Source: Flavobacterium psychrotrophum (GTDB taxonomy: Bacteria; Bacteroidota; Bacteroidia; Flavobacteriales; Flavobacteriaceae). From it: a stretch of DNA of 64,000 nucleotides. The stretch covers positions 4,402,001-4,466,000 of the forward strand of contig NZ_CP031557.1 of NCBI RefSeq assembly GCF_003403075.1, given 5' to 3'. The position numbers and the translations under genes were made by a program. The first letter of the stretch is position 1; each line of letters opens with the position of its first letter. This document shows, piece by piece, positions 13,283 to 20,445 of the stretch. The notes under the pieces are model-generated. The model was not told the DNA's origin, made no database searches, and saw only the letters and a list, made by a program, of their open reading frames with translations.

Positions 13283-13327
13283 TAAGTTTGCACCCGCATC
13301 TAAAAAATAGTTAAGCCCCCTTAACTA
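13283..13327 (+). promoter_or_regulatory. -7 element and leader hairpin of the 1109-aa T9SS gene
   Basis: TAAGTTTG (13283-13290) matches the -7 consensus, 62 bases before the ATG; no good -33 TTG is seen. The leader then contains the perfect hairpin TAGTTAAG (13308-13315), CCCC, CTTAACTA (13320-13327), ending 24 bases before the start codon. Confidence 0.4.
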
Positions 13328-13351
13328 CCTAAAATTTAAATAATTACTAAA

Positions 13352-16300
13352 ATGAAAAAAGCATTATTTCTACTATTGCTATTGCCTTTTATTGCCCTAT
13401 CTGAAACCAACGCTACATGGGCAGTTAATCCTCTAAATGGTACCTATACTGTAGGAGCAGGCGGCAACTACACAACGCTTACAGCTGCTGTTGCGGCACT
13501 AAACGCTAACGGTATTTCTGGGCCGGTAACTTTCAAGCTTACAAATGCCACTTATAGTGTAGCTACAGGTGAAACTTTCCCGCTAACAATCAATTCTATA
13601 ACGAATTCTTCATCTGCTAATATAGTTACTTTTGAACCCGCGACTGGTAACAATGTAACAGTTGAGGCGACAAATCAAACTATTAATAATAATCTTGCTC
13701 CAGTAGCTGCGGTATTTGTTTTAAAAGGAGCTGATTATGTAACTTTTAACGGTGGCACTGCTAAAAATCTTATCCTTAGAAACGCAAACAACGTAAATGA
13801 TGATTCAGCGCGTGCTGTAATATGGGTTGCGGCAAATGGTACAGATGCTGCTACTAACATAACTGTAAAAAATACTGTTCTTAAAGGTTGCCCTAGTTCA
13901 AACTCTAAATACAATGGAGGTGTTTACTCCGGTGCTTATGGTCTTGCAGGTAGCTATGGTAAACATATAAGCATAAGTGAGGCTCTAGCTAATAATACAG
14001 GTCTTGTAGTAACAAACAATACTTTTATAGATGTAAGGAACGGTGTGTATGTAAATGCAGGTTCGTCAACCGCTACAAATATTACAGTTTCTGAAAATGA
14101 CTTTGGTGGTTATAGTGCTTCAAATGGTGTTCGCCTTTCAGGGGGTGTAATTCTTAAAAATGTGAATGGCTTTACCGTAACAGGAAATTCAATACATGAT
14201 ATCATTCAGGATTTCTCAAACGGAAATCTTGCGGTAAGGGCTGGTGGTATTCACATAGGTGAAGCTTCTAAAGAAGGGGTTATCACTAAAAATAACATCA
14301 AGAACCTTGTGAGGACTAGCGATAACAGCTATCAGTTTGCAGGTGTAGCACTTGAATCTACTGTAGCAATTACTAATATACTTGTTGCAAATAACTTCAT
14401 ACTGAATTTAAAAACAAACTGGGCAGGTGATACTACTCAGGCTTCACACGGTATCAGTATTGTAAAAGGCGGAAGCTACAAGATATACTTTAACACTGTA
14501 GCTTTTAATAACAGCCAAGATGGAGGATTCTCTACGGCGCTATATGTAGGTGCTAACGCAGGTAGCAATATTGATGTAAGAAACAACATTTTCTCTAATC
14601 AGCAAACAAATAGTAGTGCTAACAGGCTTGCTATCCTTATAATAAAAGATCCTTCTCAGCTTGGATCAGTATTCAGCAACCTTAACTATAACGCTCTTTA
14701 TGCTCAATACATAGGGTATGCGGGTACAAATGCTAACTGGACTGGTAATAGCGGTAATACTAACTATCAGACATCATTAAGTGGATGGAAATCGGCTACA
14801 GGTCGCGATTTTAATTCTCTAAACGTTAACCCTTCTTTTGTAAGTGCTACAGATCTACACCTTACTGCAAATAATGCTACTAACGCTACACTTGCAGGTA
14901 CAGCAATCAGCTCAGTAAAAAAAGATATTGATGATAATGTAAGAAACTTTGTTACTCCTACAATTGGTGCAGATGAGTATGGTGTTTCTCCTTATGTAGA
15001 TGCTACTACTTGTGATGCTTCTACAATATGGAACGGTACAGCATGGAGCAATGGTGAGCCAACAGCTACTACAAATGCAATTTTTAATGGAAGCTACACT
15101 CAAAACGGTGGTATACTTAACGCTTGTACACTTTATGTAATGGATGGTGCTACTGTAATATTTACAAACAACAGTACTGCTAAAGTAGTACACAGTGTAA
15201 ACGTAACAACTGCAGGTTCACTTACTTTTGAAAGTAGCTCTAACCTTATCCAGGTAGAAAACGACGCTAACACAGGTATAGTAACTGTAAAACGCCTTAG
15301 CGGTAAACTAAAAAGGCTTGATTACACAATATGGAGTGCACCGGTAGTTGACTCAAGGACGGCAGACTTCCAGACACTAAAAACGTTCTCTCCAGAAACA
15401 TTAGCAAACCGTTTCTACACATATACAACTACACAAGGTGTGTTTAATACAGTAGATGAAAACACAACAAGGTTCGCAGCTGCATCTGGTTACCTTATCC
15501 GTATGCCAAATACAGGTAGTGCAACAGGTTATAACGCAGGTACCGGAAGGATGCAATACAATGGTGTTTTTACAGGTACTCCTAACAATGGTGTAGTAAC
15601 AAAAAGCCTTGGATATGGCGATAGCGCACACGCTTTCACAATGGTTGGTAACCCTTACGCATCTCCAATAAGCATCAAAGCTTTCATTAATGCTAACATA
15701 GACCAGATTGAAGGTACTGTATGGCTTTGGAGAAAAACAAACAATGCTACTCAAACAAGCTACTGTACTGCAAACCTTTCAGGATATGTTGCAAACAGCG
15801 CTCCGGGTGGAAATACTACAGATGGTAACGATCTTATCCTTAACCCTTATGCAGTAGATCCAAGCGGTTTCCTTAACACAGCTCAGGGCTTCTTTGTAAA
15901 AGCAAAAGGTACAAACAAACAAGTAGCGTTTAACAACGCAATGAGAATAGACAATCACTCAAATGCATTCTTTAGGGCTGCTGCTCCTTCAACAGATATC
16001 AGCCGTGTTTGGTTAAACGTTGCAAACGCAGCAGGTGAATTTGATCAGGTTCTTTTAGCTTACAACCCTGATACAACAACAGGATATGATAATGGATATG
16101 ACGGTATGTCTATGTCTTCTGGAAACCTTAGCCTTTACTCTACACTAAACGTAGAAAACGAAACGCTAAACCTTGCAATCCAGACACGTGGAGCGTTTAA
16201 CGCAACAGACGTGGTGCCAATGGGCTTTGCAGCTCCTACAGCAGGTACTTACACAATAAGTGTAGATCAGGTAGACGGTGTATTTGCTCAGGGACAGATA

Positions 16301-16681
16301 GTTTACCTTACTGATAACGTAGAAGGTATAACAAGAAACATTACTGCTAAGAGCTATACATTTACATCAGAGGCTGGTACATTTGCAAACAGGTTTACTG
16401 TAACTTATGCTCAGGGCGCTCTTGGTACAGATAACCCAATAGCTACACCTGCAACAGATGTAATAGTGTACAAAGACAACAAGCAGGTAGCTGTTACAGC
16501 TCCACAGGCAATAAAATCGGTAGTAGTTTATGATATGCTTGGCAGGGCTCTTTACAACAATGCTAAAGTAAACAGCAACGAGTTCAAAACTATCGATATC
16601 AATACAGCACAACAAGTAGTTGTAGTACTTGTAACACTTGAAAACAACCAGGTGGTGTCAAAGAAAATTATGATGAACTAA
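13352..16681 (+). CDS. T9SS-secreted beta-helix protein with type C sorting signal
   Basis: A 1109-aa exported protein with a clear signal peptide (MKKALFLLLLLPFIALS). Residues ~30-130 carry the GAGGNYTTLTAAVAALN opening common in secreted flavobacterial proteins. About 120-550 is a run of Asn/Val/Ile-rich short strands (NNTF, ENDF, GNSI, NNIF) typical of a right-handed parallel beta-helix, the fold of polysaccharide lyases and adhesins. The C-terminal half contains the platform shared with its two neighbours (KRLDYTIWSAPV, GYLIRMPNTG, VGNPYASPIS) and a ChiA-like type C T9SS signal (VWLNVANA, NGYDGMSM, ATDVVPMGF, VVYDMLGRALY). The final residues KKIMMN differ from the usual KKII[YF] end, and the stop codon lies inside a repeat hairpin. 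Enzymatic activity cannot be inferred. Confidence 0.85.
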   Translation: MKKALFLLLLLPFIALSETNATWAVNPLNGTYTVGAGGNYTTLTAAVAALNANGISGPVTFKLTNATYSVATGETFPLTINSITNSSSANIVTFEPATGNNVTVEATNQTINNNLAPVAAVFVLKGADYVTFNGGTAKNLILRNANNVNDDSARAVIWVAANGTDAATNITVKNTVLKGCPSSNSKYNGGVYSGAYGLAGSYGKHISISEALANNTGLVVTNNTFIDVRNGVYVNAGSSTATNITVSENDFGGYSASNGVRLSGGVILKNVNGFTVTGNSIHDIIQDFSNGNLAVRAGGIHIGEASKEGVITKNNIKNLVRTSDNSYQFAGVALESTVAITNILVANNFILNLKTNWAGDTTQASHGISIVKGGSYKIYFNTVAFNNSQDGGFSTALYVGANAGSNIDVRNNIFSNQQTNSSANRLAILIIKDPSQLGSVFSNLNYNALYAQYIGYAGTNANWTGNSGNTNYQTSLSGWKSATGRDFNSLNVNPSFVSATDLHLTANNATNATLAGTAISSVKKDIDDNVRNFVTPTIGADEYGVSPYVDATTCDASTIWNGTAWSNGEPTATTNAIFNGSYTQNGGILNACTLYVMDGATVIFTNNSTAKVVHSVNVTTAGSLTFESSSNLIQVENDANTGIVTVKRLSGKLKRLDYTIWSAPVVDSRTADFQTLKTFSPETLANRFYTYTTTQGVFNTVDENTTRFAAASGYLIRMPNTGSATGYNAGTGRMQYNGVFTGTPNNGVVTKSLGYGDSAHAFTMVGNPYASPISIKAFINANIDQIEGTVWLWRKTNNATQTSYCTANLSGYVANSAPGGNTTDGNDLILNPYAVDPSGFLNTAQGFFVKAKGTNKQVAFNNAMRIDNHSNAFFRAAAPSTDISRVWLNVANAAGEFDQVLLAYNPDTTTGYDNGYDGMSMSSGNLSLYSTLNVENETLNLAIQTRGAFNATDVVPMGFAAPTAGTYTISVDQVDGVFAQGQIVYLTDNVEGITRNITAKSYTFTSEAGTFANRFTVTYAQGALGTDNPIATPATDVIVYKDNKQVAVTAPQAIKSVVVYDMLGRALYNNAKVNSNEFKTIDINTAQQVVVVLVTLENNQVVSKKIMMN

Positions 16682-16994
16682 TCATAATGGTTTAGTAATT
16701 TTTTAGTTGGATGTAGGCTCCCGGCCGTTAAACGCGGGGAGCCTTTTTTTAGTACATTCTTTTATTGAAAAAATATAGCAGATGCAGGCTAAACGTTAAT
16801 TGTGGCTGGTTTAACCCCACAATGTTTTAGTAATTTTTTAGTTGGATGCTAGCCCTGGTGGCAACACCGGGGCTTACTAAAAAAAGCCTAATCTGACAAT
16901 CCTTTATTGTAATGCACGTAATGCACGCATTATAATGTTTTAGTAATTTTTTAGTTGGATGCACGATATAGGGTACCTCGTGGTGCCCTTTATC
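16667..16994 (+). repeat. Three tandem hairpin-linker-hairpin modules
   Basis: A 28-nt sequence starting AATGKTTTAG and ending AGTTGGATG occurs at 16686-16713, 16821-16848 and 16934-16961, identical except for one base in the first copy. Each copy begins with the final AAT of a left hairpin (16667-16688, 16799-16823, 16906-16936) and is followed by a right hairpin (16716-16743, 16851-16874, 16965-16994). The hairpins pair well in every copy although their sequences are unrelated between copies, so pairing rather than sequence is kept. The first left hairpin contains the stop codon of the 1109-aa gene. I do not recognise this element. Confidence 0.8.
16716..16750 (+). terminator. Intrinsic terminator of the 1109-aa T9SS gene
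   Basis: GGCTCCC (16716-16722) pairs with GGGAGCC (16737-16743) and is followed by seven Ts. It is also the right-hand hairpin of the first tandem repeat module. Confidence 0.75.
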
Positions 16995-17080
16995 ATTTTA
17001 ACTAATAACGCCCCCAAAACAAATTTATCCCCCTTTAAATCGTGGTAATGTATTTAAAATAGAAAATCAGTTATCATTAA

Positions 17081-17142
17081 TATTTCTTATCTGTACTTCT
17101 TAGTGCCCCCATTAAAAAGTACAATCCCCAAAATAAGAAATA
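17081..17142 (+). other. Large leader hairpin upstream of the 1086-aa T9SS gene
   Basis: TATTTCTTAT (17081-17090) pairs perfectly with ATAAGAAATA (17133-17142), and nested inside GTACTT (17093-17098) pairs with AAGTAC (17117-17122). It lies 42 bases before the start codon, so it could shape the messenger leader. The rest of 16995-17184 shows nothing recognisable. Confidence 0.5.
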
Positions 17143-17184: not shown

Positions 17185-20100
17185 ATGAACAATTCTATTT
17201 TTACCCAAAAATCATTAAGGGTTAAGCTTGTCAGTGCCATACTGCCGGTTATGCTTTCCCTGATTACCTTTTCGGCAGGTGCACAATGTACACCCGCAGG
17301 AGATCAAACTACTTACGGCCAGGAACAATGGATAGGCTATGTGTACAACAACTATTCTACTGCAGTAAGCCCTCCAACATCGCCATTTAGCGGAACTTAC
17401 CGTGGCTATGTTACTAAAACATCTGACTTTACTTATGATATGGGCAATGGAGCCGTATCCGGAGATAACGTTTGTGGCGTAACGAGTGCAGATTATTTTG
17501 CCATCCGTTTTAAGATGAAAAAAGCACTTGCTGCCGGTTATTACAAGTTTCACGTAGGTGGAGATGATGGTTTTAGACTGAGCCTTAATGGTGGTACTTC
17601 ATTCCCGGATAACCTTCAGGCCTGGAGCGACCATGGTAATATTTCTAAAGAGGCCGTTTATTATCACGCAGGTGGTGTTATAAACCTTGTTATAGAATAT
17701 TATGAAAAAGCAGGAGGTGCTACAGTAGACTTTAATGTAAAAGCGCTTGACTGTAACTCTACAGCGCCTACAACTATTACCGGAGATAATAGTGTATATG
17801 CTTGTTATCCTACCACAACCCTTACTGCATCTGGCGGAACAGCCGGCACAGGCAGCCACTATGAGTGGGGAACAGGAACCGTTGCAGGTCAAAACATTAT
17901 ATCTGGCCAGCAGGGTGCTTCTATAACCAGGACACTTACTGCAACTACTACTTACTGGGTGCGTCGCGTATCGGGTTATGAATGTGCTTCTAATTCAGAT
18001 GCTATATTTTATACCGTGCAATACCAAAACTTAACACCTGGTAACCCTGCAGAATATGGAAACAATATCTGGAAGGTATATACAACCACCTATAATGTTA
18101 ATGCTAATAATGCAGAAACCTATAAAGGTTACTTTACAGACAGTAACCTGAGCTATAACTCAGAGGCTAGTTTTGCAGGAGGTTCAAACCCGTCTACAGC
18201 TGCTACATGGGAAGGCTGTAATTTTACAAGTAACGACTACTACTTTTTTACCGCAAAACGCCAGGGCTTTCCGTGTAACGATTATGTGGTAACACTAAAC
18301 AAGTGGGACGATGAGATCTGGGTTTATATAAATGATGAAACAACTCCTGTATACCATTATAATGGCTGGAGTGGGGGTGCGCCTACAGTACCTTATCCTC
18401 TTGGTACTATTCATCTTGGTCCTGAATCTAAGATTACTGTAAAAGTTCGTGAATCTGCCGGAGATGCTAATGCTTACATTAAAATTGTACCAGCGGTTAC
18501 AGCCCCTGCATCAATAACAGGTACTAACGTTACCTGCCCGGGTACAGCAGTAGCACTTACTGCTCAGGGTGGTACTACAGGGGTAGCCGGTGTTTATCAG
18601 TGGGGTACAGGAACCGTACCAGGCCAAAACATTATAGCTGGTGCTACAACCGCACAGGTTACAGTAAGGCCGGTAGCTAACACTACATACTGGGCACGCA
18701 TTTCTAAGCCATCTACTTGCGTGGGAGGTTATACAGATGCGGCGTTCTTTACAATATCGCTACAGGAAAATACCTGGATAGGCCCTGCAAACTCAGACTG
18801 GAACAATGCCACTAACTGGTCTTGCGGCGCAATACCAACCATAGGTCAGGTAGTAATAATACCTACAGCAAGCCACCAGCCTGCTATTACAAGTACGGCT
18901 TATGCTAAAACACTTACAGTACAGTCGGCAGCATCAGTAACCATAGCTGCAGGTGGTACCATGTACATTGCAGATGAGCTGGTTGTTTCGCCTTCGGCAA
19001 CTTTTACGGTAGAAAATAATGGTGCGCTTGTACAACAGCATAATGCTGTTAACAGTGGCAAAATTAAGCTTATAAAAAACACAAACCCTTTATACAGGCT
19101 GGATTACACACTATGGTCTGCTCCGGTAACGGGACAAAACATGGCAGCTTTTAGCCCTAATACTACAGCTAACCGTTTTTATGAATATAAGTATGCACAA
19201 AACGCAAGCAACGCGTGGATAGAAGGCTACTGGTCTGTAGATGCTACCGTTACTGACTTTACAAAAGGGAAAGGCTATCTTATACGTATGCCAAATTCCA
19301 GTACTGTTGCAGGTTATGAGCAGGGTACAGGATCTGTGCCGTTCATTGGTAATTTTACAGGCGAGCCAAACAACGGTGCGGTAAACGTAACGCTTTCTAT
19401 GGATAACAACCGCTTTACAGCAGTGGGTAATCCTTACCCGTCTCCTATAAGCGTGACAGATTTCTTTACTGCAAACGGTTCTAAACTGGCTACAGATACG
19501 GGTATCTACCTTTGGAGGAAACGTAACAATGCAGTGGCATCTTCTTATGCTACCCTTACGCTTGCAGGCTTTGTGTCTAATCCTGCCGCAGGCGGAGGTG
19601 CAGACCAACAAACCTATTACAGGAGTGGTTCAGAATGGCTTTTGGCACAAGGACAGGGCTTCATCGTAAAAACGAGTACTACGGCTACCACAGCACCGGT
19701 GCTTACGTTTGAAAACAGCATGCGCCGCGCTGCACCGGGTGTAAACCAGGGCTTTTTCAGGGAAGCACAAAGTACAGCTTCTAAACTTTGGCTAAACGTT
19801 ACTAATAGTGCTGGGGCTGCGGCTCAAACGGCAGTTGCCTATATGGAAAATACCACTACAGGTATAGACTATGGTTATGATGGTAAGCTACTTGCAGATG
19901 CTAATACTGTAGCTTTATACTCTATAGCGCAGGATACTAACTTTGCTATACAGGCAAGAGATACATTTAATGTTTCAGATGTTGTAGCTATGGGCTTTGT
20001 AGCTCCTGCTGCCGGTGAGTATACTATTAACCTTGACCATGCTGAAGGTGTGTTTGAAAACGGGCAGGCTATCTACCTTAAAGATAATGTAGAAGGCATC

Positions 20101-20445
20101 ATTCGTAACATTAGTGGTCGTAATTATACTTTTACAACCGAAGCCGGTACTTTTGAAAGCCGTTTTGAGGTAATGTATACAAACTCAGTTTTAGGTACAG
20201 ATAATCCAGAAGCTGTAGCATCTAATGTTGTGGTTTATAAAAACAATAACCAGGTAAATATTAATGCACCGCAGGCCATAGCATCTGTAGCTATATTTGA
20301 TGTATTGGGCAGGAACGTGTACAACAAAGCCGGTATCAACAATGTTGAATTCAGCACCGGCGAACTTAACGTTGCTCATGAGGCGCTTATCGTTAAGATA
20401 ACGCTTGCTAACGGTGCCCAGGCATCTAAAAAGATAATCTTCTAA
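17185..20445 (+). CDS. T9SS-secreted PA14-like protein with type C sorting signal
   Basis: A 1086-aa exported protein with signal peptide (hydrophobic core about 14-32, cleavage near SAGAQ). Residues ~35-190 (WIGYVYNN, GYYKFHVGGDDGFRLSLNG) look like a PA14-type carbohydrate-binding beta-barrel, and a second related block spans ~285-450. Between and after them are two Ig-like segments that each contain a WGTGTV.GQNI repeat (~225 and ~472). From ~530 (WIGPANSDWNNATNW) it follows the same platform as the 2744-aa protein, with nearly identical stretches such as NRFTAVGNPYPSPIS and NSMRRAAPG. It ends with a ChiA-like type C sorting domain and KKIIF. It is probably a surface or secreted glycan-binding protein; no catalytic motif is visible. 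Confidence 0.86.
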   Translation: MNNSIFTQKSLRVKLVSAILPVMLSLITFSAGAQCTPAGDQTTYGQEQWIGYVYNNYSTAVSPPTSPFSGTYRGYVTKTSDFTYDMGNGAVSGDNVCGVTSADYFAIRFKMKKALAAGYYKFHVGGDDGFRLSLNGGTSFPDNLQAWSDHGNISKEAVYYHAGGVINLVIEYYEKAGGATVDFNVKALDCNSTAPTTITGDNSVYACYPTTTLTASGGTAGTGSHYEWGTGTVAGQNIISGQQGASITRTLTATTTYWVRRVSGYECASNSDAIFYTVQYQNLTPGNPAEYGNNIWKVYTTTYNVNANNAETYKGYFTDSNLSYNSEASFAGGSNPSTAATWEGCNFTSNDYYFFTAKRQGFPCNDYVVTLNKWDDEIWVYINDETTPVYHYNGWSGGAPTVPYPLGTIHLGPESKITVKVRESAGDANAYIKIVPAVTAPASITGTNVTCPGTAVALTAQGGTTGVAGVYQWGTGTVPGQNIIAGATTAQVTVRPVANTTYWARISKPSTCVGGYTDAAFFTISLQENTWIGPANSDWNNATNWSCGAIPTIGQVVIIPTASHQPAITSTAYAKTLTVQSAASVTIAAGGTMYIADELVVSPSATFTVENNGALVQQHNAVNSGKIKLIKNTNPLYRLDYTLWSAPVTGQNMAAFSPNTTANRFYEYKYAQNASNAWIEGYWSVDATVTDFTKGKGYLIRMPNSSTVAGYEQGTGSVPFIGNFTGEPNNGAVNVTLSMDNNRFTAVGNPYPSPISVTDFFTANGSKLATDTGIYLWRKRNNAVASSYATLTLAGFVSNPAAGGGADQQTYYRSGSEWLLAQGQGFIVKTSTTATTAPVLTFENSMRRAAPGVNQGFFREAQSTASKLWLNVTNSAGAAAQTAVAYMENTTTGIDYGYDGKLLADANTVALYSIAQDTNFAIQARDTFNVSDVVAMGFVAPAAGEYTINLDHAEGVFENGQAIYLKDNVEGIIRNISGRNYTFTTEAGTFESRFEVMYTNSVLGTDNPEAVASNVVVYKNNNQVNINAPQAIASVAIFDVLGRNVYNKAGINNVEFSTGELNVAHEALIVKITLANGAQASKKIIF

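Follow-up and report, generated by a model that had tools for sequence, protein, structure and literature searches.

FopS is a family of paralogous small RNAs (sRNAs) of Bacteroides (PMC11697453). One FopS member is derived from a 3' UTR, and the sequence is also carried by a phage (PMC11697453). Similar to FopS, the three modules described here would belong to a multicopy sRNA family of the Bacteroidota whose shared seed pairs near the start codons of surface-protein mRNAs. Different from FopS, whose copies are dispersed, about 65–70 nt long and mostly equipped with their own promoters (PMC11697453), the modules were mostly found in tandem behind one T9SS gene. This comparison, which is one of descriptions only, suggests that the modules may work like FopS. 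Rfp18 of F. psychrophilum, as described in its report (PMC9723704), is likewise a conserved Flavobacterium sRNA in which one region is predicted to pair with several secreted-protein mRNAs; different from the modules, it is an independent transcript with a stem-loop reported as the pairing region, again compared by description only. Finally, LhrC, Qrr and the Cia-dependent RNAs are named as tandem or sibling sRNAs in the report on FopS (PMC11697453). Few sRNAs of Flavobacterium were found in the literature searched, and no description of the module element was found there. The modules appear to form a new small-RNA family with a regulatory role.

The module array and its T9SS gene

The window, a stretch of 64,000 nucleotides from Flavobacterium psychrotrophum, contains three tandem modules on the forward strand (16667–16750, 16799–16886 and 16905–16998), each of which consists of an AT-rich hairpin, a 23-nt core and a GC-rich hairpin. 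In module 1, the left hairpin ATTATGAT/ATCATAAT (16667–16688), identified from the sequence and by stem scan, is followed by the core (16691–16713) and by the right hairpin GGCTCCC/GGGAGCC with seven T behind it, which is terminator-like (16716–16750). Module 2 contains the left hairpin ATTGTGG/CCACAAT (16799–16823), the core (16826–16848) and the right hairpin AGCCCTGGTG/CACCGGGGCT with the tail TACTAAAAAAAG (16851–16886), which is able to pair with the core. Module 3 possesses the left hairpin ATTGTAATGC/GCATTATAAT (16905–16937), the core (16939–16961) and a right hairpin of 13 positions with one mismatch, followed by ATTT (16965–16998). A GC hairpin with a T run is clear only for module 1. 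At 16875–16886, and also in loci L068, L082, L084 and L105, an ACTAAAA end replaces the T run and could pair with the module's own core.

The cores, located by word search, have the same 23 letters in all three modules; over 28 nt they differ by a single base (AATGG in module 1 and AATGT in modules 2 and 3). All three cores and six stems lie where the earlier note had placed them, and its core spacing of 135 and 113 is correct. The longest word present three times in 16601–17100 was 23 nt, compared with at most 12 nt in 1000 dinucleotide shuffles. Moreover, the predicted fold of 16660–17010 had an energy of -115.5 kcal/mol (z = -7.74), which was equalled in 0 of 100 shuffles. Rfam gave no match at gathering scores in the window; ten weak matches at E ≤5, all below gathering and the best with an E of 0.12, were taken as chance. 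In the window's own genome outside the array, no match to the core was better than three mismatches, and the covariance model found nothing at E ≤1 in twenty other 20-kb stretches of this genome.

LhrC, Qrr and the Cia-dependent RNAs each comprise several near-copies with shared targets, and each copy has its own promoter. Different from these RNAs, modules 2 and 3 are not preceded by any promoter-like box that could be recognised by eye.

The array follows a gene on the forward strand (13352–16681) that was identified by its sequence and signal match as encoding a T9SS surface protein of 1109 aa with a type C signal. Its stop codon (16679–16681) is inside the left hairpin of module 1. The earlier note had regarded the C-terminal KKIMMN as atypical and as a possible mark of insertion into the gene end. 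The type C (ChiA-type) signal, however, matches residues 1054–1107 of the 1109 residues, so the end is neither cut nor atypical for such a signal. The orthologues, which are 1297–1619 aa long and 43–51% identical over the shared part, have similar ends, among which KKIMMN, KKIMVN, KKIMVD and KKIMLN were seen again. A left module hairpin also covers the stop codon of a gene of this kind in at least 10 loci, in one of which (L072) the stop codon is that of the second gene. Because both the stop codon in the hairpin and the KKIMMN-like ending recur in orthologues, the arrangement is common to them and no insertion is indicated. In L068, L071, L076, L082 and L083, the first recognised copy starts 80–159 nt past the stop codon.

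The next gene in the window (17185–20445, forward strand) encodes a protein of 1086 aa with a T9SS type C signal, of which about the last 500 residues are similar to the first protein; no module was seen after it. In L082 (5655–6005), two module copies are separated by a decayed N-terminal piece similar to this second T9SS gene; some arrays may thus have originated by loss of a gene between copies.

Distribution and conservation of the modules

The earlier note had suggested looking for the core elsewhere, near T9SS genes. The exact 23-mer was found in 16 of 398 genomes of the same genus (24 copies, often in tandem). An exact 20-mer of the core was found in 22 stretches among 84,980 species genomes searched, all titled Flavobacterium. 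Arrays of two or three were common, with three copies in F. subsaxonicum and two each in F. akiainvivens, F. rivuli and F. zepuense. The N-terminal part of the T9SS gene had a match below 1e-80 in 11 of the 398 genomes, all 11 of which contained the exact core; 50 genomes had weaker matches and none of these contained it.

Copies also occurred apart from this gene. In G024 and G408 (both F. beibuense) and in G153, no homologue of the T9SS gene was found, and a single copy was near a gene of ketoacyl-synthase size (Pfam-checked in G024). In G033, one copy was behind a short homologue of the T9SS gene and another near a synthase gene. G108, the metagenome-assembled genome MedPE-SWcel, carries two copies elsewhere than at the T9SS gene (covariance model E of 1.5e-6 and 1.6e-5), and G403 (F. 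suaedae) has one copy found by the same model (E of 1.9e-5). L107 was rejected as independent virus evidence, being identical to contig 12 of G108, and L106 and L108 look protein-coding and appear to be chance matches. At L074:2382–2860 of G108 (reverse strand), two module-like copies are preceded by repeats like ACCGTTCATC, which we take to be LytTR/AlgR-type boxes.

Among 43 copies at 22 loci, nearly every one has both stems, and the stem sequences vary. For the stem scan, L075 and L078 were left out, and one false match (L077) and one duplicate were dropped. As the stems were picked per copy, the shuffle ranks are indicative: the left stem was matched in at most 10 of 100 shuffles in all 43 copies, whereas for the right stem no more than 3 of 100 shuffles did as well in 42 copies, and 35 of 100 did in the remaining one (L094_857). 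The pair types differed along both stems across the 43 copies, and in a sequence-only alignment of 34 copies the left stem covaried, with 4 of 6 pairs changed on both sides. RNAalifold recovered only the left stem, because the sequence alignment misplaces the right one. The covariance model, whose use the earlier note had also suggested, recovered held-out module copies and found two diverged copies that the stem-scan pattern had missed (L068:4576 and L082:6344). As in sRNA families, a conserved unpaired seed is flanked by structured parts. Since both stems persist in 43 copies while their sequences change, it is close to certain that the modules are a conserved structured RNA, and the functional RNA with kept pairing that the earlier note had proposed is borne out.

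Seed complements at start codons

The word ATCCAACTAA is the reverse complement of the 3' half of the core. In eight core-bearing genomes, 81 sites were found and 78 sorted; the three unsorted ones, all of G108, were two modules and a prophage site in L075. After removal of 22 elements, 56 non-element sites were left, of which 19 were 8–60 nt upstream of start codons, compared with 2 of 43 in four core-less genomes (G007, G010, G011 and G032; one-sided Fisher 2.6e-4). Permuted words were at start codons in 37 of 648 and 20 of 487 cases. These counts include the removal by hand of row L331, a module that had been counted as a target (20/57 to 19/56), and the sites classed as elements include L246 and L270, which are located 17 and 21 nt ahead of short ORFs, as well as 2 of 45 control sites. 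Four of the 19 sites had prompted the test; without them the count was 15 of 52. Without G108 it was 10 of 42 against 2 of 43 (p 0.012). The enrichment of ATCCAACTAA at start codons suggests trans-acting sRNAs that share a seed.

Of the 19 sites, 17 were in G108 (9/14), G251 (F. salilacus, 4/7), G239 (2/7) and G403 (2/7). The other four genomes, which include the window's own (G000 1/7, G141 1/5, G110 0/2 and G332 0/7), gave 2 of 21, equal to background. Moreover, seed words were not enriched at 362 gene starts of the window's own genome, a tenth of that genome: ATCCAAC and TCCAACT occurred 0 times and CCAACTA once, and only the generic ACTAAAA was enriched. The sites lend support to the putative seed step in four relatives, whereas the window's own genome has so far given no such support. 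Trans action through the seed is accordingly graded as probable for some relatives and as only plausible in the window's own genome.

Outside modules, the 16 genomes contain 12 sites of the 13-mer CATCCAACTAAAA, of which 7 closely precede a start codon (two of the 7 are orthologous), compared with 1 site for the reversed pattern. The candidate targets include lipoprotein-like proteins, recognised by reading their N-termini, a Pvc16_N protein, a tail-collar protein and, in G239, a prophage-operon ORF beside a repressor-like gene and with SSB-like and primosome-like genes. The site is kept between genomes for two candidate targets, a lipoprotein-like protein (66% identity) and the prophage ORF (52%), whose G108 homologue has a similar site. 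At L228:4814–4837 and L075:5518–5544, a near-complete core complement of about 20 nt precedes the start codon of ORFs in prophage-like operons.

Four genomes (G251, G239, G403 and G332) also contain a short stretch with TTAGTTGGATG, followed by a GC hairpin with a T run (L256, L258, L251 and L310, near position 1500). In three of them the stretch is preceded by a box like TAnnTTTG, a Bacteroidota promoter motif. This locus may be another family member, possibly a free-standing small RNA, or a coincidence.

Proposed function and alternatives

We propose, with a probability of about 0.6, that one small regulatory RNA element is repeated three times, as the modules, in the 3' UTR of the T9SS gene, and that its seed acts on other mRNAs. 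The modules would be transcribed with the 3' end of the gene, or released from it as small RNAs. The 3' half of the core, UUAGUUGGAU, would serve as the seed, base-pairing with other mRNAs at their translation initiation regions and probably preventing their translation, and the several copies could give a higher dose or act as siblings. Of the three ideas in the earlier note, a regulatory RNA array fares best given the seed sites in relatives, while the own genome stays at background.

A cis-acting 3' UTR is a rather unlikely alternative: its hairpins would terminate transcription and shield the end of the mRNA, and an RNA-binding protein would bind the core. The modules are directly behind the gene and on its strand, and 25 of 43 copies have a T run behind the right stem. 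However, three genomes that lack a homologue of the gene altogether have copies, further copies are at another place in G108, and the seed complements cluster at start codons in four relatives. The multi-terminator of the earlier note holds only in part: 25 copies have a run of at least four T, but 7 have an A run and 11 lack runs of either kind, and an invariant 23-nt linker would be superfluous for a terminator alone.

Self-regulation through pairing of the core with the gene's own 5' leader (AATTACTAAA ahead of the ATG against TTTAGTAATT) is improbable. In its favour, the leader shows conservation, and the only occurrence of AATTACTAAAATG in the own genome is at the start codon of the 1109-aa gene. 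This pairing, good by eye, was unsupported by ranking: it ranked 19 of 362 in the own genome, and twelve leaders ranked 18 to 135 of 216 against genes of relatives. The leader (13290–13352) contains a hairpin with a C-rich loop that was not seen in the other T9SS genes compared. Of 398 genomes, 7 matched a pattern for this hairpin, and each of these has the core; this is no clean test of co-occurrence, because the pattern missed forms with a five-C loop, including the window's own.

DNA target sites for an integrase or single-strand transposase, as also raised in the earlier note, are very improbable: an invariant core beside hairpins and the paralogous or decayed T9SS genes between some copies would suit them, but the modules are on the strand of the T9SS gene wherever this gene is upstream, the core is present in all eleven genomes with close orthologues, as for vertical inheritance with the gene, and the tails are terminator-like.

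Implications

Starting from the small regulatory RNA element with a trans-acting seed, a wider picture can tentatively be drawn, although as a whole it is rather unlikely: a Flavobacterium-specific sRNA regulon would have grown from the stop codon and 3' UTR of one T9SS gene, with tandem siblings and dispersed relatives sharing one seed, through which surface lipoproteins, contractile-tail-type genes and an early prophage operon would be silenced. The module family provides a seed as well as candidate targets that are open to direct tests. If the proposal is true, the production of one secreted protein would be tied to the control of other surface and phage genes.
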